Below are positions 23,350 to 49,682 of a stretch of 64,000 nucleotides of DNA, one piece after another; position 1 is the first letter of the stretch, and each line of letters opens with the position of its first letter. The position numbers and the translations under genes are program-made. The stretch is from Joostella atrarenae. Lineage in GTDB: Bacteria; Bacteroidota; Bacteroidia; Flavobacteriales; Flavobacteriaceae. The stretch lies in the NCBI RefSeq assembly GCF_021764745.1, contig NZ_JAETXX010000002.1, positions 62,001 through 126,000 of the forward strand, in the 5' to 3' direction. Below the pieces are notes generated by a model. That model ran no database searches and was not told the origin of the DNA. It saw only the letters and a list, made by a program, of their open reading frames with translations.

Positions 23350-24108
23350 TTATAGCTTTTTTAGATCATCACGAACTTCTAAGTAAAAGGCATTGAAATC
23401 TGGATGTAAGAAAATGTATGATACATTTCCACCTCCAGTATTTGTAGTCACTTTTAATCTTGTTGGTGCAATTTCAAAATCTTCTTGAAGTGTTTTTGTA
23501 ATAGCAGAAGCTCTTAAAGAGTTAATTCTCCAATCATCACCAGCGCTCTGTGCTGATACTGATAATTCTGGGTACTTTGTTATTGTAGCTGCAAGTCTTC
23601 CAATAAAGTCTTTGGCAGAAGCTGTTACTTCAGGATTGTCTTCTTTTCCGCTGAAAAGAGTAGAATTTTCCATTTTCACGATAATAGATCCTTTTTCAAC
23701 TCCAATTTGAGCGTTTTCTCCTAGTGTTTTTTTAAGGTCTGTTAATACTAATAATGCTACAGAGTCGTTAGCGCTAAAAGTATCTCTAATTCCTTTTATT
23801 TGTTTTTCTCTTTTTCTTAAAGCTTCTAAAGTTCTACTAATACTGTTGGATTGTTGTGTGGAAGTAGATAAGAAATTGTTCATATTATCTAAAAGTCCCT
23901 TATTGGTTTCTTCTAGTTGCTCCACCTGAAATTCTAAGCTTTTAACTTTATTCTGTGATACAGCTAAGTCAGATTGCGTTTGTTTTAAAACTTTAACCTT
24001 GTCGTTTAAGGTTGCAACTTGTTCTTTTAATTCCTTTTTACTCTGAGCAGAAAGGGGGGTATTAATTGATAATACTAATAAAAGCAAAGTAATAGTAAAA
24101 GTTCTCAT
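23350..24108 (-). CDS. Secreted coiled-coil protein with OmpA/MotB-like C-terminus
   Basis: A 252-residue protein with a signal peptide (cleavage near LSAQS, about residue 22), a long coiled coil (about 25-110) and a C-terminal part of about 130 residues. This has the OmpA-like layout: an acid-labelled strand with NSTLFSGKEDNPEVTASAKDFIGRLAATI, then WRINSLRASAITKTLQEDF where OmpA has the NxxLSxxRAxxV helix. It probably contacts peptidoglycan from the periplasm. The first start codon is well placed for the signal peptide. Terminator-bounded and apparently monocistronic. Confidence 0.75.
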   Translation of the reverse strand: MRTFTITLLLLVLSINTPLSAQSKKELKEQVATLNDKVKVLKQTQSDLAVSQNKVKSLEFQVEQLEETNKGLLDNMNNFLSTSTQQSNSISRTLEALRKREKQIKGIRDTFSANDSVALLVLTDLKKTLGENAQIGVEKGSIIVKMENSTLFSGKEDNPEVTASAKDFIGRLAATITKYPELSVSAQSAGDDWRINSLRASAITKTLQEDFEIAPTRLKVTTNTGGGNVSYIFLHPDFNAFYLEVRDDLKKL

Positions 24109-24305
24109 TATAAGTATTTGTTTATTTTAAATGCAGCACAAGATATTATTTTTTAATAAGATGACATAAAGAAGAATGCAAACCTTTAAATTTTTCTGTA
24201 TTTTTTATTCAGAACGACTTTTTAGGTTTTATTAATAGAAAAAATATAACTTTTCTTATTAAAATCGAGAGATTTAATATATTGTGATAAAAAAACTCAA
24301 TATTA

Positions 24306-24338
24306 TTTGCATATCTTTTTTATAATGATTTAAATTTG
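24306..24338 (+). promoter_or_regulatory. Promoter of the histidine operon
   Basis: TTTG (24306-24309), a 21-nt spacer and TAAATTTG (24331-24338) match both boxes of the Bacteroidota consensus. The predicted start, about 24344, is some 13 nt before the leader peptide ATG and about 180 nt before hisG. Confidence 0.7.
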
Positions 24339-24356
24339 TAGAAGATTATAATAACA

Positions 24357-24413
24357 ATGACAATATATACATCACATCATCATCATTTTCATACTTGCGC
24401 TCAAGCGAGGTGA
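24357..24413 (+). CDS. His operon leader peptide (attenuator peptide)
   Basis: An 18-codon ORF reading MTIYTSHHHHFHTCAQAR and then TGA. Five of seven consecutive codons (24375-24395) encode histidine, four of them in a row, immediately upstream of the complete his operon and between its promoter and a terminator. This is the arrangement of classic ribosome-mediated attenuation: stalling at His codons when charged tRNA-His is scarce would expose the segment 24400-24407 and favour antitermination. The peptide itself probably has no other function. The call is based on the sequence; the mechanism is inferred from its parts. Confidence 0.85.
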   Translation: MTIYTSHHHHFHTCAQAR

Positions 24414-24440
24414 GATTGTTATGTGTGATTTTTACATAAT

Positions 24441-24475
24441 AAAAACCCGTTTGAGTAATCAAACGGGTTTTTTTA
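24441..24475 (+). terminator. Attenuator terminator of the his leader
   Basis: AAAAACCCGTTTGA (24441-24454) pairs with TCAAACGGGTTTTT (24459-24472) around a 4-nt GTAA loop, running into a T-tract. Its left arm (CGTTTGAG, 24448-24455) can instead pair with CTCAAGCG at 24400-24407 (one G-U pair), which lies just after the His codons. The two pairings are mutually exclusive, giving terminator and antiterminator forms. It lies 54 nt before hisG. Confidence 0.88.
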
Positions 24476-24528
24476 TTGATTTTTTTTAAATAAAACCGTA
24501 CCAAGAAATAAGTATTTTTATAAAAATT

Positions 24529-25392
24529 ATGGAAGAAAGAAAAATAAAAATTGCGATTCAGAAGTCAGGAAGGTTAAATGAAGATTCTCTGAAAATCTTA
24601 AAAGACTGTGGTATTTCTATAGATAATGGAAGAGAGCAGTTAAAGGCTTCTGCTAGAAATTTCCCTTTGGAGGTAATGTATTTACGAAATGGAGATATCC
24701 CTCAGTATTTAAGAGATGGAGTTGTAGATCTAGCTATTGTTGGCGAAAATCTACTAATTGAGAAGGGTAAGGACTTACAGATTGTAGAAAAGTTAGGATT
24801 TTCTAAGTGTAAAGTTTCATTAGCAGTTCCAAAAGGTAGTGACTTCACTTCCGTTAAAGATCTTGATGGAAAAAAAATAGCTACGTCTTACCCAAATACG
24901 GTAAATGAGTTTTTGCAGAGAGAGAAAATCAATGCAGAACTTCATATAATTAGTGGTTCTGTAGAAATAGCCCCTAATATTGGACTTGCAGATGCTATTG
25001 TAGATATAGTATCTAGTGGAAGTACCCTTTTTAAAAATAACCTTAAAGAGGTAATTACAATTCTTAGAAGTGAGGCTGTTCTAGTTGGTCCACCTATAAT
25101 CGATGAAGAAATTAGGGCTGTTGTAGATAAGCTGAGATTTAGAATCCAGTCAGTTTTAAAAGCTAGAGATTCTAAATATGTATTGCTTAATGCTCCAAAT
25201 GATAAAATCGATAAGATCATAGAATTGCTTCCAGGAATGAGAAGTCCTACTGTATTACCTCTTGCAGAAGAGGGTTGGAGCTCTATTCATACCGTTATCA
25301 ATAAAGATAGATTTTGGGAGATTATAGATGAACTTAAAGCGGTTGGAGCTGAAGGGATTTTAGTTTGCCCAATAGAAAAAATGGTAATGTAG
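24529..25392 (+). CDS. hisG: ATP phosphoribosyltransferase, long form
   Basis: A 287-residue enzyme catalysing the first committed step of histidine synthesis, joining ATP and PRPP. It opens IKIAIQKSGRLNEDSLKILKDCGI, has the RNGDIPQYLRDGVVDLAIVGENLL segment and the PRPP loop in ADAIVDIVSSGSTLFKNNL. The C-terminal 75-residue ACT-like domain (from about 212) identifies the long form, which is feedback-inhibited by histidine without HisZ. It is the first structural gene after the attenuator. hisD follows after 36 nt. Confidence 0.96.
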   Translation: MEERKIKIAIQKSGRLNEDSLKILKDCGISIDNGREQLKASARNFPLEVMYLRNGDIPQYLRDGVVDLAIVGENLLIEKGKDLQIVEKLGFSKCKVSLAVPKGSDFTSVKDLDGKKIATSYPNTVNEFLQREKINAELHIISGSVEIAPNIGLADAIVDIVSSGSTLFKNNLKEVITILRSEAVLVGPPIIDEEIRAVVDKLRFRIQSVLKARDSKYVLLNAPNDKIDKIIELLPGMRSPTVLPLAEEGWSSIHTVINKDRFWEIIDELKAVGAEGILVCPIEKMVM

Positions 25393-25428: not shown

Positions 25429-26712
25429 ATGAGCAACATATATAACCCAAAGCGAGAAGAATGGTCGGAAATATTACAACGCCCTACGCAAACTATTGAT
25501 GATATTGAGGCAACTGTATATGAGGTTTTTAATGAAGTAAAGCAAAAAGGAGACGAAGCTGTTAAAAAGTATACCAGCCTTTTTGATGGAGTAACTTTAT
25601 CTTCTAACATTGTTTCTGAAAAGGAAATAGAAGAGGCTAATAGTCTTGTTTCTGAAGAGTTGAAAGCGGCAATTGCATTAGCTAAATCTAATATAACAAG
25701 CTTTCACAAAGCACAAAAAACAGATAAAGTAACAGTAGAGACAACTGCAGGAGTATCTTGTTGGCAAGAAAAACGTCCGATAGAAAAAATTGGACTTTAC
25801 ATTCCAGGAGGAACTGCGCCTTTATTTTCTACAATTTTGATGTTGGCTATTCCTGCTCAAATAGCAGGTTGTAAAGAGGTTGTTTTGTGTACACCTCCAA
25901 ATAAAGAAGGTAAAGTAAATCCTACAATTTTGTATACAGCAGCGCTATGTGGGGTTAGTAAAATATATAAAGTAGGAGGGATACAAGCTATTGCAGCAAT
26001 GACTTTCGGAACAGATTCTATCTCTAAAGTTTATAAAATATTTGGACCAGGGAACCAGTTTGTAACAGTTGCAAAGCAATTGGCAACACGTTACAATGTA
26101 GCTATCGATATGCCTGCTGGCCCGTCAGAGTTATTAGTAGTTGCAGATGAAACAGCAAAGGCTGCTTATGTGGCTTCAGATTTGCTTTCTCAAGCGGAAC
26201 ACGGTGCAGATAGTCAGGTGGTTTTGGTTTCTACTTCTAAAGATTTGATTGAAGCGGTTTCTGAAGAAATAGAATTACAGATAAATGAATTGCCAAGAGT
26301 AGAAATAGCTAAGAAAGCTATTGAAAATTCAAGATTTATTTTAGTAGATAATGATGAAGAGGCTTTGGAGTTGATTAATGAATATGGTCCTGAGCATTTT
26401 ATAGTGGTTACGAGTAACGAAGATTTTTATGTAAACGGAGTTACCAATGCTGGATCTGTCTTTATAGGAGATTATACTCCAGAAAGTGCTGGAGACTATG
26501 CTTCGGGAACAAATCATACGTTGCCTACTAATGGGTATGCAAAGCAATATAGTGGTGTTAACCTTGATAGTTTTATGAAGAGTATGACTTTTCAGAAAAT
26601 ATCGAAAGACGGAATTAAAAGTATAGGTCCTGCAATTGAGTTAATGGCAGAAGCAGAAGGTTTACAAGCACATAAAAATGCTGTTACATTACGTTTAAAT
26701 GACTTAAAATAA
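25429..26712 (+). CDS. hisD: Histidinol dehydrogenase
   Basis: A 427-residue zinc enzyme performing the last two oxidations from histidinol to histidine. Motifs: IPGGTAPLFSTILMLAIPAQIAG, the VGGIQAIAAMTFGTDSI and FGPGNQFVTVAKQ region for NAD, IDMPAGPSELLVVAD, LLSQAEHGADSQVV with catalytic Glu-His, and GPEHF later. Length normal. It sits second in the operon, between hisG and hisC. Confidence 0.96.
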   Translation: MSNIYNPKREEWSEILQRPTQTIDDIEATVYEVFNEVKQKGDEAVKKYTSLFDGVTLSSNIVSEKEIEEANSLVSEELKAAIALAKSNITSFHKAQKTDKVTVETTAGVSCWQEKRPIEKIGLYIPGGTAPLFSTILMLAIPAQIAGCKEVVLCTPPNKEGKVNPTILYTAALCGVSKIYKVGGIQAIAAMTFGTDSISKVYKIFGPGNQFVTVAKQLATRYNVAIDMPAGPSELLVVADETAKAAYVASDLLSQAEHGADSQVVLVSTSKDLIEAVSEEIELQINELPRVEIAKKAIENSRFILVDNDEEALELINEYGPEHFIVVTSNEDFYVNGVTNAGSVFIGDYTPESAGDYASGTNHTLPTNGYAKQYSGVNLDSFMKSMTFQKISKDGIKSIGPAIELMAEAEGLQAHKNAVTLRLNDLK

Positions 26713-26746
26713 GGGAAAGTATATATTGGTTAACGAACAATAGAAA

Positions 26747-27787
26747 ATGACATTCGATATAAATAATTTGGTTCGCGAGAACGTAAAGAAACTGAAACCT
26801 TATTCGTCGGCGAGAGATGAGTTTAAGGACTTTGATAAAGAGATGGTTTTTTTAGACGCTAATGAGAACCCGTTTAACAATGGTGTAAATAGGTATCCAG
26901 ATCCACAACAGCGTTCTTTAAAAGATGTTTTGGCGCAACAAAAGCAAATAAAGACCTCTCAGGTTCTTTTAGGGAATGGGAGTGATGAAGTTCTAGATCT
27001 TATTTTTAGAGCTTTCTGTGAGCCTAAAAAAGACAATATTATAACGCTTCCTCCAACCTACGGAATGTATAAAGTGTTGGCAGAAACAAATGATATTGAA
27101 AATAGAGAAGTACTACTTACAGAAGATTTTGAACCTAATGTAGAGGCGATCATAAAAGAAGCTGATAGCAACTCTAAGCTTTTATTTATTTGCTCTCCTA
27201 ATAATCCTACTGGAAATATATTCAATATTAAAAAGGTAGCGCAGTTGCTCCAAAATTTCTCTGGTATTGTTGTAATTGATGAAGCATATATTGATTTTTC
27301 TGAAGCTCCAAGTTGGGTTTCTAAATTATCAGAGTATCCAAATTTAATAATAACGCAAACCTTGTCTAAAGCATATGGAATGGCTGGAATTAGATTAGGG
27401 ATATGTTATGCTTCTGAAGAAATAATTTCAGTAATTAATAAAATAAAACCTCCTTATAACGTAAATGAGCTAACTCAAAAAAGGGCTTTAGATAGAGTTC
27501 TTGATGTAGAGTCTGTTAAAAATGAAATCAACTCAATTTTAAGTGAAAGAAGTGTTTTATATAAAGCTTTACTTGAAGTTAATTTTGTCGATAATATTTA
27601 TCCATCAGATTCAAATTTTGTACTAGCTAAAGTTGATAATGCAGATTTACGTTATCAACAATTACTCGAAAAAGGGGTGGTTATTCGTAACCGTTCTTCA
27701 CAGCCACTTTGTGAAAACACACTCCGATTTACGATAGGAACTCCTTCAGAAAACAAACAATTAATAGAAGTTTTAAAAGAATTATAA
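26747..27787 (+). CDS. hisC: Histidinol-phosphate aminotransferase
   Basis: A 346-residue fold-type I PLP enzyme converting imidazole-acetol phosphate to histidinol phosphate. Visible are [10 protein letters not shown] near the N-terminus, [15 protein letters not shown], the CSPNNPTGN turn, VIDEAYIDF, and the PLP lysine in [14 protein letters not shown]. The stop and the hisB start share one base (TAATG), so translation of the two is coupled. Confidence 0.95.
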
Positions 27788-28923
27788 TGGCAAAAAAAGT
27801 GCTTTTTATAGACCGAGATGGGACACTCATAAAAGAACCCGCAGATGAGCAAATTGATGCTTTTGATAAATTAGATTTTTACCCGCAGGCGTTTACATAT
27901 ATGAAAAGAATTGCGGAAGAGTTCGATTATGAATTGGTAATGATTACAAATCAAGATGGACTCGGTACCGATGTGTATCCGGAAGATACATTTTGGCCTG
28001 TTCATAATTTTATAATGCGATCTTTTGAGAATGAAGGGGTTGTTTTTAAAGAAGTGTTTATAGACAAGACTTTTGCAAAAGATAATGCGCCTACAAGAAA
28101 GCCAAATACAGGGCTACTAACTAAGTATTTCTCTGAAGAATATGACTTGGCTAATTCTTTTGTGATTGGAGATCGTCTAACAGACATTGAGTTAGCTAAG
28201 AATTTAGGTTCTAAAGGTATTTTTATTAATGATGAAAGTTATTTGGGAGCTGATGAGATATCGGTAAAAAGAAATGACCTTGATGCTTTTATAGCCTTGG
28301 AGACAGCTAGTTGGAAAGAAATATATGACTTCTTAAAACTAGATAATCGTGTTGCTGAGATTACAAGAAAAACGAATGAAACGGATATTTTTATAAAACT
28401 TAACCTAGATGGAACCGGAAAGAGTGATATAGCTACAGGTTTAGCGTTTTTTGACCATATGTTAGATCAGATTTCTCGTCACGGGCAAATGGATCTAACG
28501 GTTAAAGTTAATGGGGATTTGGAGGTAGATGAGCATCATACAATAGAAGATACTGCAATTACATTAGGTGAAGTTTTTAGTATGGCGTTAGGAAATAAGT
28601 TAGGTATAGAACGATATGGATTTTGCTTGCCTATGGACGATTGTCTAGCACAAGTTGCTATCGATTTTGGAGGAAGAAACTGGTTGGTTTGGGACGCCGA
28701 TTTTAAAAGAGAGATGATAGGGCAGATGCCTACAGAAATGTTTTATCACTTTTTTAAATCGTTTACCGATGGTGCAAAAGCTAATCTAAATGTAAAGGCT
28801 GAAGGGCAAAATGAGCACCATAAAATAGAGGCAATTTTTAAAGCTTTTGCCAAAGCAATTAAAGTAGCTGTTAAAAGAGATACTGAAAAAATGATTCTCC
28901 CTTCCACTAAAGGGATGCTTTAA
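27787..28923 (+). CDS. hisB: Bifunctional histidinol-phosphatase / IGP dehydratase
   Basis: A 378-residue fusion. Residues 1 to about 165 form a HAD phosphatase with the nucleophile motif [12 protein letters not shown] and [11 protein letters not shown]. Residues of about 175-378 form imidazoleglycerol-phosphate dehydratase, with metal-binding [22 protein letters not shown] and the second [15 protein letters not shown]. The order of domains is the same as in enterobacterial HisB. It is coupled to hisC and followed by a 103-nt AT-rich gap before hisH. Confidence 0.95.
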
Positions 28924-29026
28924 GTAAATCATTTAATTATCTGGTAATAAATACATTAAATTTAAATATAGAAAATATACTCATAGCGAATTTTTAACTT
29001 TTAATTTGAATTTTTAAAACATAATA

Positions 29027-29608
29027 GTGAATATAACAATCATAGATTACGGAGCAGGAAACATACAAAGTATAAAATTTGCTTTCCAAAGAATAGGTAT
29101 AAATCCTGAGTTAACTCATGATGCTGAATTGATAATGAAGGCCGATAAAGTAATTTTTCCTGGAGTTGGAGAAGCGAGTAGCGCAATGCATAAATTGGAA
29201 GCTACTAGTCTAGATGTTTTGATTCCAAAATTAAAACAACCTGTTTTAGGAATTTGCCTAGGGATGCAATTAATGTGTAATGCATCAGAAGAAGGAGCTA
29301 CAAAAGGATTGGGTATTTTTGATGTTGATGTAAAAAAATTCAGCAATAAAGTAAAGGTGCCACAGATTGGATGGAATCAGATTTCAGATTTAAAAACGCC
29401 ACTTTTTAATGAAATTTCAGAAAAAGAGTATATGTATTTAGTACATAGTTTTTATGCACCAATTTGTTCAGAAACCATAGCAACTTCTAATTATGAATTA
29501 GATTATTCGTCTGCATTGCATAAAGATAATTTTTACGGAACACAGTTTCATCCAGAAAAAAGTAGTTTAGCAGGTCAGCGAGTTTTGGAGAACTTTTTGA
29601 AATTATAG
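29027..29608 (+). CDS. hisH: Imidazole glycerol phosphate synthase, glutaminase subunit
   Basis: A 193-residue class I glutamine amidotransferase delivering ammonia to HisF. It opens IDYGAGNIQSIKFAFQ, carries the nucleophile Cys in VLGICLGMQLMC, and ends with the catalytic His-Glu pair in YGTQFHPEKSSLAG. The start is GTG at 29027 (reading MNITIIDYGAGN); it is the only start consistent with the conserved beginning. hisA follows after 65 nt. Confidence 0.95.
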   Translation: MNITIIDYGAGNIQSIKFAFQRIGINPELTHDAELIMKADKVIFPGVGEASSAMHKLEATSLDVLIPKLKQPVLGICLGMQLMCNASEEGATKGLGIFDVDVKKFSNKVKVPQIGWNQISDLKTPLFNEISEKEYMYLVHSFYAPICSETIATSNYELDYSSALHKDNFYGTQFHPEKSSLAGQRVLENFLKL

Positions 29609-29673
29609 TGAAGTTAGCCAATTGGCAGAATTGCAAAAGGTGTAAAGAATAAGATAATTCTAAAAGAAAAAAA

Positions 29674-30399
29674 ATGAGAATAATACCCGCAATAGATATA
29701 ATAGAAGGCAAGTGTGTGCGTCTTTCTAAAGGAGATTATAACACCAAAAAGATATATAATGAGCACCCGTTGGAAGTGGCTAAAGAGTTTGAGGCGCATG
29801 GGATAGAGTATTTGCATTTGGTGGATTTAGATGGCGCAAAGAGTAAGCACATTGTAAACTATAAGGTTTTAGAAGCCATAGCTAGCAAAACAAGTCTAAA
29901 AATAGATTTTGGAGGCGGATTAAAATCTGATGAAGATTTAAAAATAGCTTTTGAAAGCGGTGCAAATCAAATTACTGGAGGGAGTATTGCAGTTAAGGAG
30001 CCAAGTGTTTTTGAAAGTTGGATCAATAACTACGGAAATGATAAGATTATTTTAGGAGCAGATGCAGATAATGAAAAAGTAGCTGTTTCTGGATGGCAAG
30101 AAGAATCGGATGAAGAATTATTACCTTTTATATCAAAATACCTTCAAAAAGGGATAGAATATGTAATTTGTACCGATATTAGTAAAGACGGAATGTTGGA
30201 AGGACCTTCATTTGCGCTTTACAAGAAGATTATAGAGACTTCTAAAGAAATTAAACTAATAGCTTCAGGAGGGATTTCTGCCTTTGATGAGCTTCCTAAA
30301 TTGGCCGAAATAGGTTGTGAAGGAACAATTATTGGGAAAGCTATTTATGAAGGTAGAATTAGTTTAAAACAGTTGGAAGATTATATTTTGAATAAATAA
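29674..30399 (+). CDS. hisA: ProFAR isomerase
   Basis: A 241-residue TIM barrel catalysing the Amadori rearrangement of the fourth step. The catalytic Asp is in [19 protein letters not shown], and the later catalytic Asp is in [17 protein letters not shown]; the phosphate loops are [12 protein letters not shown] and [12 protein letters not shown]. hisH, hisA and hisF are separated only by short gaps and one small inserted gene. Confidence 0.95.
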
Positions 30400-30449
30400 G
30401 AACATATTGCTGTCTCCATTTTAGGGAGATGGTATTAAAAATTAGAAAA

Positions 30450-30659
30450 ATGGAAGTAAAAGACAGTAATGGAAATGTTTTAAATGACGGTGATTCTGTA
30501 CACTTAACAAAAGATTTGAAAGTAAAAGGGATGTCGAAAACCTTAAAACGTGGTAATGCGATTAAGAACATCCGTCTTACAGGTTCTCCAGATGAGGTAG
30601 AATGTAGAGTAGGGAAAAGTACAATAGTATTAAAAACACAATTTTTAAAGAAGTCCTAA
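30450..30659 (+). CDS. PhnA C-terminal-domain protein inside the his operon
   Basis: A 69-residue protein beginning MEVKDSNGNVLNDGDSVHLTKDLKVKG and ending VGKSTIVLKTQFLKK, the conserved small beta-domain of PhnA/YjdM proteins. The zinc-ribbon N-terminus of full-length PhnA is absent. Despite the old name it has no shown role in phosphonate breakdown. It lies between hisA and hisF with no gap to hisF (stop 30657-30659, hisF ATG at 30660), so it must be co-transcribed and probably coupled. An upstream in-frame ATG at 30429 is less likely because the family begins at the D-S-N-G turn. Confidence 0.75.
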   Translation: MEVKDSNGNVLNDGDSVHLTKDLKVKGMSKTLKRGNAIKNIRLTGSPDEVECRVGKSTIVLKTQFLKKS

Positions 30660-31415
30660 ATGCTAACAAAACGGATTATTCCTTGTTTAGATATTAAGAA
30701 TGGTCGTACGGTAAAGGGCGTTAATTTTGTTGACTTAAGAGATGCTGGTGATCCAGTAGAGTTGGCCAAATTATATGCTGAAAACGGTGCTGATGAATTG
30801 GTTTTTTTAGATATTTCTGCTACGGAAGAAAGAAGAAAAACACTGATAGATTTGGTGCTTCGTGTGGCAGAGAATGTTAATATTCCATTTACAGTTGGTG
30901 GCGGAATATCTTCAGTTGAAGATGTTGACGTTTTACTTAAATCGGGGGCTGATAAAGTATCTATAAATTCTTCAGCAGTTAAAAATCCGCAGTTAATAAA
31001 TGAGCTTTCAGCTAAATTTGGAAGTCAGTGTGTGGTTGTCGCTATTGATGCTAAACAAATTAACGGACAATGGAAAGTGCATTTAGTAGGTGGAAAAGTA
31101 CCTACGGAGCTTGATTTATTTGACTGGGCAGAAGAAGTAGAAAAACGTGGAGCTGGAGAGATATTGTTTACTTCCATGGATAATGATGGTACAAAAGACG
31201 GCTTTGCAAACAAGGCATTAGCAAAATTATCTACAGATTTAAATATCCCGATAATAGCTTCAGGAGGAGCAGGGAAAATAGAACATTTTACAGATACTTT
31301 TGTTGAAGGAAAAGCTGATGCAGCATTAGCGGCAAGTGTTTTTCATTTTAAAGAAATAGAAATCAATGACCTAAAGGAGGTCTTGAGAGAAAATGGTATT
31401 CCTGTAAGATTATAA
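30660..31415 (+). CDS. hisF: Imidazole glycerol phosphate synthase, cyclase subunit
   Basis: A 251-residue TIM barrel paired with HisH. Hallmarks are [20 protein letters not shown] with the catalytic Asp, [39 protein letters not shown], and the second catalytic Asp in [14 protein letters not shown]. It starts immediately after the PhnA-like stop codon. hisIE follows after 22 nt. Confidence 0.96.
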
Positions 31416-31437
31416 TAGATTTAGAAGAAGTATAAAA

Positions 31438-32034
31438 ATGAAAATAGATTTTAATAAAAACGGCGACTCTTTGGTTCCAGCGGTAATTCAAGATGTAAAC
31501 ACTAAAAAAGTGTTGATGTTGGGATACATGAATGAAGAGGCATACAAACAAACCTTAGAAACTGAAAAGGTGACTTTTTTTAGTAGAACGAAGCAACGTT
31601 TGTGGACAAAAGGAGAGGAAAGTGGAAATTTTTTATTGCTGAAAGACATTAAAGTCGACTGTGATAATGATACTCTTTTAATTCAAGTTTCGCCTGTTGG
31701 TCCTGTTTGCCATAAAGGAACAGACACATGTTGGGAGGAAACTAATGAAGCTAGTTACGGATTTATTAGTAAGTTGGAAGCGATAATTTCTGATAGAAAA
31801 GAAAATAAAGATAATGAAGAGAGTTATGTAGCGTCACTTTTTAGAAGTGGAATCAATAAAATAGCTCAAAAAGTAGGAGAGGAGGCTGTTGAAACTGTAA
31901 TTGAAGCCAAAGATGATAATGCAGATTTGTTTTTAAATGAAAGTGCAGACTTACTTTTCCATTACCTTATTTTACTACAAGCAAAAGGATATACTTTAAA
32001 AGACATTGTAAAAGTGCTTGAAGAGAGAAATTAA
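31438..32034 (+). CDS. hisIE: Bifunctional phosphoribosyl-AMP cyclohydrolase / ATP pyrophosphatase
   Basis: A 198-residue fusion covering steps two and three. The N-terminal HisI part has MLGYMNEEAYKQTLETEKVTFFSRTKQRLWTKGEES cores and zinc-binding VDCDNDTLLIQVSPVGPVCHKGTDTCW. The C-terminal HisE part has SLFRSGINKIAQKVGEEAVETVIEAK and ends in the LFHYLILLQAKG helix. It completes the set of his enzymes and is the last his gene. corA follows after 36 nt with no visible terminator. Confidence 0.95.
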   Translation: MKIDFNKNGDSLVPAVIQDVNTKKVLMLGYMNEEAYKQTLETEKVTFFSRTKQRLWTKGEESGNFLLLKDIKVDCDNDTLLIQVSPVGPVCHKGTDTCWEETNEASYGFISKLEAIISDRKENKDNEESYVASLFRSGINKIAQKVGEEAVETVIEAKDDNADLFLNESADLLFHYLILLQAKGYTLKDIVKVLEERN

Positions 32035-33173: not shown

Positions 33174-34010
33174 TTATTTTATAATAAAATTAGACATCAT
33201 TACTAAAGCAGCAAGCACTAATCCCATTCCGATTAGCTTTTCGAGTGTTTTATTTTTCATTTTTAAATTTAACCGTTGTCCTCCTAATGCACCAGCTGCA
33301 AAGCCGAGCATAATTGGCCATGCTTTATCTAATTCAATATGGCCTAGCATAAAGTGGCTAAATGTACCCGTTGTGCTTGTAATAACAATCATAAATAGAG
33401 CAGTGGCTGTTGCTATTTTTGCTGGCATTTTAAAAACTTTTAGCATAATTGGAGTTTTTAAAAATCCGCCACCAATTCCAAACAGACCGGCTAATGTTCC
33501 TGCTAATAGCCCAAAAAACAAAACCATCCAAGCACTAAATCGGTAAGCTACATGGTTTCTTTTATTCTTAATAATATATCTAGGCTTGTATTTATTTAAT
33601 CGGTAGAAAAACCCTCCATTTCCTTTTTTGTCTTTCTTCCCCTTTTTTAAGAAGAAAGAGATTCCGAGGAATAGCACTAATACAGCAAATAAAACTTCTA
33701 ATCTTTCTGCTGAAATATAAGATAGTAGTAGACTTCCAATGACCACACCCAAAATGGTAGGGATTTCAAGGAGAATTCCCATTTTAAAATCGACATATCC
33801 TTCTTTTCTATTTAAATAAGTAGAAATTAAAGAAGAAGGAATGAGAGAGATCATAACTGATCCAACGGCAGTCGTTAGTGGAAAATGAAAAACAGTAATA
33901 AGTATGGGAACCATAAATATTCCACCACCAAAACCAACTACAGATCCAAACATGCTTATGGTGAAGCTGATTAAAATTAGAATAATAGTGATGATAATTG
34001 CTGTTTCCAT
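33174..34010 (-). CDS. TauE/SafE-family sulfite/sulfonate exporter-like protein
   Basis: A 278-residue integral membrane protein of about eight helices, built as two repeats: MFGSVVGFGGGIFMVPIL in the first half and GLLAGTLAGLFGIGGGFLKTPIM in the second, each the GxxGxGGG signature of the TauE/SafE family (DUF81). Members export sulfite, sulfoacetate or related anions, but substrate is unproven. Location beside DoxDA, DsrE, sulfurtransferase and cysteine genes supports a sulfur-compound role. It is divergent from the 34223 gene. Confidence 0.85.
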   Translation of the reverse strand: METAIIITIILILISFTISMFGSVVGFGGGIFMVPILITVFHFPLTTAVGSVMISLIPSSLISTYLNRKEGYVDFKMGILLEIPTILGVVIGSLLLSYISAERLEVLFAVLVLFLGISFFLKKGKKDKKGNGGFFYRLNKYKPRYIIKNKRNHVAYRFSAWMVLFFGLLAGTLAGLFGIGGGFLKTPIMLKVFKMPAKIATATALFMIVITSTTGTFSHFMLGHIELDKAWPIMLGFAAGALGGQRLNLKMKNKTLEKLIGMGLVLAALVMMSNFIIK

Positions 34011-34206
34011 GCGTTTTGATATAATATAAAGTTACAAATTTAAAGTATTTCTTTTGTAAGAAAATCTATTAACTAGATAGGGAATTTTAATAATCTCATC
34101 AGAATTAATTTAAAAGTAGATCTAAAAATTGAAACTTATAGATTATCATTTTGTGAATAGATTCTTAGATTAAGTGTTTTTTAACTTTCATTCTTATTTA
34201 TAACTC

Positions 34207-34214
34207 TATTTTTG
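34207..34214 (+). promoter_or_regulatory. Candidate -7 element of the DoxDA/DsrE group
   Basis: TATTTTTG matches TAnnTTTG. It is only 9 nt before the ATG at 34223, so either the transcript is nearly leaderless or the true start lies downstream. No TTG -33 box is seen. Confidence 0.4.
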
Positions 34215-34222
34215 TAACCGTG

Positions 34223-34621
34223 ATGTTAAAGAGTTTACACATAAAATGTGGAGTACATTATTTTGTGCTGATATTGCTAAGTATTTTATTACTAGCATCA
34301 CCATGCGCTGCCAGAAATTCTATGCAGGATTTTGCAGGTATGAAAAAAACTTCTACGCTTAATAAAAGCAAAGCAACCAGTTTCTTTGGTGCGTGTACTG
34401 CAAATAATAAACTTTATAAAGTAGAGAAAGCCAAAGTAAAAAAAGATAAAATTTTTCTTTTTACGCGCAACTTCTTCAGGTTTTGTATGACGCCTTCTTT
34501 AGAGGTGTATCATAGTAAAAAACGTTATCTCTTTGTTCTATATAGCTATAACTACCTGGAGATTCCTATGTATATTTTGTATCGAAATATGAAAAACTTA
34601 TCTCGCATAAACTATTATTGA
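34223..34621 (+). CDS. Small secreted hypothetical protein upstream of DoxDA
   Basis: A 132-residue protein with a hydrophobic segment (VLILLSILLLASPCAA, about 16-31) typical of a signal peptide, then a basic mature region with a second cysteine in SFFGACTANNKLYK and a Tyr-rich end. I do not recognise a named family. Its position just before the DoxD-DoxA gene on the same strand, and vaguely similar secreted ORFs that I remember in this spot in related genomes, suggest a conserved partner, but this is weak. GTG at 34220 precedes the ATG directly; I use the ATG. Confidence 0.5.
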   Translation: MLKSLHIKCGVHYFVLILLSILLLASPCAARNSMQDFAGMKKTSTLNKSKATSFFGACTANNKLYKVEKAKVKKDKIFLFTRNFFRFCMTPSLEVYHSKKRYLFVLYSYNYLEIPMYILYRNMKNLSRINYY

Positions 34622-48383: not shown

Positions 48384-49682
48384 TTACTTATTTACTTTGT
48401 TATCAAATCCTGTAAACCTATTAATATCAGAACCAGAAGGAGCTTCAAAAATCTCTAAGTCGAAATGAGGAACTGCTGCTATGATGTGCTCAAAAATATC
48501 GGCCATTATGCGCTCATAGTTTTCCCATCTTTTATCACTAGAAAAGACATATATCTCAATAGGAATTCCTTGCGGAGTAGGAGCTAGATGGCGTGCCATC
48601 ATAAGCATATCTTTATTAGTAGCAGAATGATTCTGCAAGTATAAATCGCAGTACTTTCTAAAGATTCCAAGATTGGTTTGATTTCTTCCGTTAACGATAT
48701 TTTGTTCTTTATCGTAACCTTGATCTTTATTGAACTTATTGATATCTTTTTGACGATGGTCTATATATTGTTTTATAGCTTGAATACTGTTATATTTTTC
48801 AAGGTCTTCAGAAGTAAGAAACTTAACGCTAGAAGCCTTTAAGAAGATAGCTCTTTTTATACGTCTACCGCCACTTTCTTGCATACCTCTCCAGTTTTTA
48901 AAGGAGTCGGATATAAGCGCATAAGTTGGAATTGTGGTAATAGTATAATCAAAATTCCTAACTTTTACAGTAGCAAGGTTTATTTCGACAACATCACCAT
49001 CTGCATCATATTTTTCCATTGTAATCCAGTCTCCAATACGAACCATGTCGTTAGCTGAAGTTTGGATACTCGCTACAAAACCTAATATAGTATCTCGAAA
49101 TATTAATAGTAAAATAGCAGAAGCGGCTCCTAATGTAGTTAAGAATTTTGCTATTGAAAGTCCTGTTAATTCAGAAAAAATAAAAAGTAAACCAAAGAAC
49201 CAAATAAAAATAATGACTACTTGTGCATAGCTATCCAAAGGTTTGTCATAAAAACGATCTGTAGTCCTAAGATAATTCTTTGTAGTTCTTACAATACTTC
49301 GCAATATAAAAACTACTAATAATATTAAGTATATATCTGTAGCTTTAGTAAAGAAAACTAGCAGCCCATGATAGTCTGTAAACACATAGGGAATTACATT
49401 CTTAATAAATATAAAGGGAGCTATGTGTGCGATGTATTTAGGGAAGTTACTTTTTACCAAGAAATCATCAAAAGTAGTTTTACTTTTATTGGTAAATGCT
49501 AAAAAGAATTTTACCACAAAAGTTCTAATGATAATATCAAGTAAATAAACTATAGCTGTAACGACTAAAATATTTGCGATCAGATTTAGCTTTTGGGCGG
49601 TACCAATAGCATAATCATGGTCTATTAACCAGTCGTGGATATAGCAACTTAAGCGAGATATTAATTCTTGATTTTCTTCCAT
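48384..49682 (-). CDS. MscS-family mechanosensitive channel
   Basis: A 432-residue membrane protein with five N-terminal helices. The pore-lining helix (TGLSIAKFLTTLGAASAILLLIF, about 168-190) leads into RDTILGFVASIQTSANDMVRIGDWI, the conserved MscS beta-domain entry. The large cytoplasmic C-terminus with YALISDSFKNWRGMQESGGRRIKRAIF resembles the YbdG/MscM subgroup. It releases solutes under hypo-osmotic shock. It is transcribed downstream of the PBP1A gene, 56 nt away. Confidence 0.9.
   Translation of the reverse strand: MEENQELISRLSCYIHDWLIDHDYAIGTAQKLNLIANILVVTAIVYLLDIIIRTFVVKFFLAFTNKSKTTFDDFLVKSNFPKYIAHIAPFIFIKNVIPYVFTDYHGLLVFFTKATDIYLILLVVFILRSIVRTTKNYLRTTDRFYDKPLDSYAQVVIIFIWFFGLLFIFSELTGLSIAKFLTTLGAASAILLLIFRDTILGFVASIQTSANDMVRIGDWITMEKYDADGDVVEINLATVKVRNFDYTITTIPTYALISDSFKNWRGMQESGGRRIKRAIFLKASSVKFLTSEDLEKYNSIQAIKQYIDHRQKDINKFNKDQGYDKEQNIVNGRNQTNLGIFRKYCDLYLQNHSATNKDMLMMARHLAPTPQGIPIEIYVFSSDKRWENYERIMADIFEHIIAAVPHFDLEIFEAPSGSDINRFTGFDNKVNK

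Follow-up and report, generated by a model that had tools for sequence, protein, structure and literature searches.

The region preceding the his operon in the analysed stretch of Joostella atrarenae DNA (64 kb in its full length, referred to as the window) is very probably a ribosome-mediated transcription attenuator, i.e., one that operates through a leader peptide. It comprises a short predicted ORF rich in His codons in front of the his biosynthetic operon, an intrinsic terminator between this ORF and the first gene, and an antiterminator incompatible with the terminator, which, according to the folding models, would be freed by a ribosome stalled within the ORF and covered by one standing at the stop codon, and this as a kinetic switch only. 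Comparison with related sequences strongly supports ribosome-mediated attenuation, and a His-leader switch before the his operon turns out, judging from the genomes compared, to be widespread in Bacteroidota.

Organization of the leader region

The features of the region are listed in Table 1. The hisG gene of the window is 93% identical to that of Galbibacter mesophilus, the nearest named record. The ORF lying 5' of the leader (23350-24108) is oriented in the opposite direction, and thus no other transcript that the terminator might end is evident.

Table 1. Features of the his leader region and of the genes behind it, in window coordinates
Feature	Coordinates	Strand	Basis
Putative -33 box, TTTG	24306..24309	+	sequence; interpretation
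Putative -7 box, TAAATTTG	24331..24338	+	sequence; TAnnTTTG enrichment in relatives
Leader ORF MTIYTSHHHHFHTCAQAR, 18 codons, ATG at 24357, TGA at 24411-24413	24357..24413	+	sequence, relatives; predicted translation
P1, long-range stem of leader codons (24371-24380) with 24421-24429 past the stop codon	24371..24429	+	folding; modest support
Control codons, His x4, Phe, His	24375..24392	+	sequence, relatives, chance test
P2, small hairpin CTTGC/GCGAG (24394-24398:24405-24409), competitor of the antiterminator	24394..24409	+	folding
Antiterminator left arm, core CTCAAGCG (24400-24407), overlapping the final leader codons	24399..24411	+	folding, covariation
Antiterminator inner hairpin (24416-24425:24433-24442), 3' of the stop codon	24416..24442	+	folding
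Intrinsic terminator, 14 pairs (24441-24472), with T tail	24441..24474	+	folding, terminator scan, RNAalifold
Antiterminator right arm, shared with the terminator left arm and loop	24445..24456	+	folding, covariation
hisG, ATP phosphoribosyltransferase with HisG_C domain	24529..25392	+	Pfam PF01634, PF08029
Further his genes: hisD, class I/II aminotransferase (hisC position), hisB, hisH, hisA, hisF, hisIE	25429..32034	+	Pfam; names by family and order

The 18-codon ORF with five His codons inside seven, reported in the initial annotation, is present where it had been placed, the His codons being codons 7-10 (24375-24386) and 12 (24390-24392). Five His codons in seven are found at two places in the six frames of the 64-kb window and at none in 30 first-order Markov copies of it. 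The second place (48992-49012, + strand) reads HHHLHHI; it was rejected as a leader because it is antisense to a 432-aa ORF (48384-49682, - strand).

A terminator scan of the leader found one terminator, against a mean of 0.0 (sd 0.1) in shuffled sequences, and the segment 24344-24475, terminator included, folds with a z value of -5.83. The alternative partner for the left arm of the terminator that had been noticed earlier is indeed there: the core arm CTCAAGCG pairs with CGTTTGAG (24448-24455) in eight pairs, one of them G-U. Folding extends this complement to nine pairs (24399-24407 with 24448-24456) and, past a one-base bulge, three more (24409-24411 with 24445-24447), closed around the inner hairpin. 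Among 5000 Markov copies of 24393-24440, a single one reaches the -17.3 kcal/mol of the antiterminator duplex. The stem P1 appears to be conserved, with modest support from a test in which 24 of 10,000 permutations reach the real pairing value (50 thinned relatives), and P2, as judged by eye, is absent from some relatives. For the stretch from the stop codon to the terminator the mean fold z is -0.96 over 41 thinned relatives.

The two putative promoter boxes match the Bacteroidota-type promoter consensus, and transcription would start near 24344, ca. 13 nt 5' of the leader ORF. Of 106 relatives, 38 have TAnnTTTG at most 35 nt 5' of the leader start, compared with 1 of 106 control windows; for the looser TAnnTTT the numbers are 83 and 21, respectively. 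For the promoter proposed in the initial annotation, a sigma-70 promoter scan gave nothing above chance (2 sites, 4.2 expected). In 23 of the 38 relatives 7-8 nt separate the end of the TAnnTTTG motif from the leader start codon (18 nt in the window), suggesting nearly leaderless leader mRNAs.

Conservation in Flavobacteriaceae

In the window's own family, Flavobacteriaceae (labelled f1), 110 hisG loci, taken from 30 of 84 matching genomes and from the best 80 of 519 relatives, gave 108 distinct upstream regions. A His-rich ORF and a terminator, scored by a lenient rule, are present in 107 of these, the exception (L025) being truncated at the end of a contig. Alignment A1 was built from 98 of these leaders, 97 of them distinct, nine near-duplicates having been removed by eye before counting and the 5' ends of L040 and L100 extended.

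In the 97 rows of A1 91.0% of the antiterminator cells are paired, a value as high as which was obtained in none of 500 shuffles, and four pairs display a two-sided change (shuffled mean 1.8, matched by 7 of 500), the structure having been derived from one row and the shuffles taking no account of relatedness. Slid controls have 23.2-52.1% of cells paired. The pairing fails in 47 of the 97 rows at the outermost antiterminator pair and in 32 at the pair 80:135. RNAalifold applied to A1 returned the terminator only. Since the A1 controls leave relatedness in, the permutation of distant leaders described below constitutes the stronger test. The comparisons with close and distant relatives favour the interpretation given in the initial annotation, the His codons and the terminator being conserved in relatives and the pairing of the antiterminator showing covariation.

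The C-terminus of the leader peptide, x-Q-A-R/S (QAR or QAS), is strikingly conserved in close relatives as well, and it could be this peptide end that acts, by arresting the ribosome as a nascent chain or as a trans-acting product, the His codons being incidental. Such an action of the peptide is very unlikely, as in L016, L061, and L062 a TAA or TAG stands in place of the Gln codon and the shortened peptide stops before QAR, yet the RNA arm is kept owing to a G-U pair, which indicates that it is the RNA that is conserved. Moreover, all 97 rows have a paired G as the final base of the arm, invariant despite being the third base of a codon, mostly GCG, and distant families have other peptide ends together with other arms, the pairing being maintained.

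His leaders outside the family

At E <= 0.01 the sequence model R1 had matches in 100 of 395 genomes, many of them through the terminator alone. Forty of the matches listed were fetched, 26 of which lie before hisG and 14 elsewhere; R1 also matches bare terminators and was rejected as a leader-specific model. The hisG gene was found in 332 of the 395 genomes, and 80 further upstream regions from outside the family were taken among the matches listed. Within 300 nt, a short ORF with at least four His in eight codons occurs in 62 of these 80 regions, and with at least three in 65, the corresponding numbers being 0 and 2 of 80 on the reverse strand and 4 and 44 of 800 in Markov copies. In 15 of the 80 no ORF within 300 nt has even three His in eight codons. 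When the 80 regions, read over 500 nt, were pooled with the 26 found by R1, a His-rich ORF was present in 94 of 106.

The pairing test was carried out on those 62 of the 94 leaders which have a terminator by a stricter rule (22 of the 62 had originally been found by R1). The arm pairs with the leader's own terminator at a mean of -14.4 kcal/mol versus -10.2 (sd 0.34) after permutation, and none of 10,000 permutations equals the real value. The letters of arm and terminator vary by family, and include AGACGG/CCGTCT, GGTAAGC/GCTTACC, CAGGTAG/CTACCTG, GTGTCGG/CCGGCAC, GCGTCGG/CCGACGC, and others. The own terminator ranks best of the 62 for five leaders only, because relatives share arms, and is in the top 10 for 38. 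Pairing is poor (-3.9 to -7.5) in L269, L274, L275, and L286.

The covariation points, as far as sequences can, to translation-coupled attenuation at the his operon in many Bacteroidota families. Bacteroidota ribosomes hardly use Shine-Dalgarno sequences. By implication, a trailing ribosome would be able to steer a terminator in Bacteroidota, and the leader would be a native sensor of that coupling.

Riboswitches and T-boxes also employ terminator-antiterminator switches, and the terminator could in principle be governed by a metabolite-binding RNA, a T-box or an RNA-binding protein rather than by translation of the His codons. We regard this as highly improbable, considering that no Rfam family, T-boxes and known riboswitches included, scores at or above gathering anywhere in the 64-kb window, that 43 matches obtained under lax conditions all remain under gathering, and that the His-rich ORF is retained while the arms change. 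The best of the 43, Thr_leader with 33.5 of 55 bits, was rejected, the similarity being put down to chance in an AT-rich leader with a terminator.

Proposed mechanism and folding states

In the ribosome-mediated attenuation proposed here, a ribosome trailing the RNA polymerase would translate the His codons of the leader. At a scarcity of charged tRNA-His it would stall on these codons, opening P1 and freeing 24399-24411, which would pair with 24445-24456 once the latter is transcribed, and thereby remove part of the terminator left arm, allowing read-through into hisG. With ample histidine the ribosome would reach the stop codon and mask 24399-24411, no antiterminator would form, and transcription would stop at the terminator (24441-24472). 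Were the leader not translated, P1 and P2 would probably sequester the arm, making termination the default. The antiterminator would occupy the part of the left arm near the loop, and the outer A residues, whose partner is transcribed last, would be left as a foothold.

The ribosome was modelled as a mask with an assumed footprint reaching from 18 nt 5' to 14 nt 3' of the first nucleotide of the A-site codon. In RNA extending to 24459, a ribosome placed at any of His 1-4 gives a predicted antiterminator probability of 0.998-0.999, compared with 0.363 for His 5 and 0.0 for the stop codon; for His 1 the value is 1.0 as soon as 24457 is transcribed. Free RNA builds P1 and P2 first (-20.1 kcal/mol at 24432-24452), the antiterminator becoming possible next (-24.1 at 24457) with a probability of 0.989 in RNA to 24459. 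Since this ribosome-free RNA favours the antiterminator, low expression without a ribosome would need P1 and P2.

In the full leader the terminator is favoured at equilibrium in all modelled states (mfe of -32.5 with the ribosome stalled at His 1 versus -24.1 for the antiterminator), which means that the switch can only be kinetic and that the antiterminator must last while the polymerase crosses the T run. The masked folds show the expected pattern as long as the right arm of the terminator does not exist, the full leader favouring the terminator throughout. The logic put forward in the initial annotation, with a stall leading to the antiterminator and a ribosome at the TGA to the terminator, finds support in conservation, covariation, and the masked folds, as a kinetic scheme only.

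Relation to known attenuators

The anatomy of the his attenuator of Salmonella and E. coli (RF00514) is well known. The leader of the window resembles it in having a leader ORF with a run of His codons, alternative RNA structures, a terminator before the first his gene, and, as proposed, the position of the ribosome as the sensor. It differs in that no sequence relation was found, in that the ORF extends into the antiterminator arm, and in the putative Bacteroidota promoter boxes with, presumably, a very short 5' UTR. RF00514 was not detected at gathering score in the window, nor was it among the 43 matches up to E = 10 (24300-24560), and as far as tested the impression that the sequences are independent of those of enteric bacteria holds.

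Leader-peptide attenuation is a classical, known kind of regulation. Vitreschak et al. (2004, FEMS Microbiol Lett) reportedly name Bacteroidetes/Chlorobi in their abstract among the groups with some candidate classical attenuators, and for this reason no first description is claimed; those predictions would be alike in placing classical attenuation in some members of these groups. No description of a his leader from Bacteroidota came up in a literature search of a collection lacking most subscription journals.

The enteric design is described in PMC1183508, and neither there nor in PMC1262725 does Bacteroid- occur in the portions of the text available. PMC4833913 mentions Bacteroidetes with respect to leader-gene distances, and there is a citation of Lopatovskaya et al. 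(2010) in it. A 2022 survey of his regulation in Gram-positive bacteria (PMC9413887, available in part) predicted His leaders in Firmicutes (the Bacillus cereus group, Eubacteriales, Erysipelotrichales), some of the attenuators having a translation-acting structure in the place of the terminator. According to this portion of the survey, those leaders are similar in encoding a peptide with 3-5 consecutive His and in having a terminator and an antiterminator identified by comparison, but they belong to another phylum, Bacteroid- occurring 0 times in that text.

Leaders without an intrinsic terminator and a trp counterpart

A hairpin with an energy of -8 kcal/mol or lower, followed by a T run, was found in all leaders tested of families f18 (6/6), f19 (3/3), f25 (2/2), f31 (12/12), f44 (6/6), and f49 (4/4), in 5 of 8 in f22 (three of these hairpins being strong, at -19 or lower, and the other two weak, at -10.1 and -8.9), in 1 of 10 in f17, and in 0 of 26 in f38. 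The results for f38 and f17 would fit a leader that acts mainly on hisG translation or via Rho, the hairpin being secondary. For the leader of the window this is extremely unlikely, since in Flavobacteriaceae all 27 leaders sampled from the 107, that of the window included, have such a hairpin at -14.6 kcal/mol or better, and its left arm can pair with the one in which the ORF ends.

In f38 hisG was placed in L295 only, 28 further loci were read by the known flank, and L305, on a short contig, was left out. A His-rich ORF is present in 26 of the 28 loci and absent from L296 and L297. In L295 a His ORF is followed by a terminator-like hairpin, which counts against a uniform picture of f38. The leaders of this family have up to 12 His codons. 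Very His-rich leaders, mostly without an intrinsic terminator, are L298-L304 and L306-L324 in f38, L260-L265, L268, L270, L272, and L273 in f17, and L222, L223, L227, L231, and L233 in f22. The stretch behind six f38 leaders contains 26.9% C and 9.3% G (uncorrected for genomic base composition); Rho-loading sites are likewise rich in C and poor in G. A candidate closing stem of f38, GTGAAAA/TTTTCAC, failed a permutation test (1047 of 10,000; 20 thinned leaders). The five f22 leaders share the peptide end HHFHHSS or HHFHHLS before the stop codon, around which an inverted repeat is seen by eye.

The lack of an intrinsic terminator in 26 of 26 f38 leaders and 9 of 10 f17 leaders tested suggests a second mode. 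It may be, and we put this forward as a tentative idea with the odds somewhat against it, that the widespread control of Bacteroidota his operons by His leaders takes two forms, the terminator/antiterminator of the window and, in f38, f17, and perhaps part of f22, a very His-rich leader located 64-120 nt before the hisG match and devoid of an intrinsic terminator, where the stalled ribosome would act on Rho, pausing or hisG translation. With such families a change of mechanism at one operon becomes directly testable.

As regards other operons of the same genome, no leader like that of L326 (below) was found before ilvD (L328) or before the chorismate-binding gene of L325, the chorismate-binding L327 having been left out. 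A trp counterpart is seen in L326 (G000:C4, 5' of the match at 33472-34227). Its ORF, MRTITNNTWWWSNLRKTS, stops 160 nt ahead of the start codon (ATG) of a trpE-like, chorismate-binding gene; a strong terminator comes after this ORF, and GTCGTGA at the end of the ORF is complementary to TCACGAC in the loop and right arm of that terminator.
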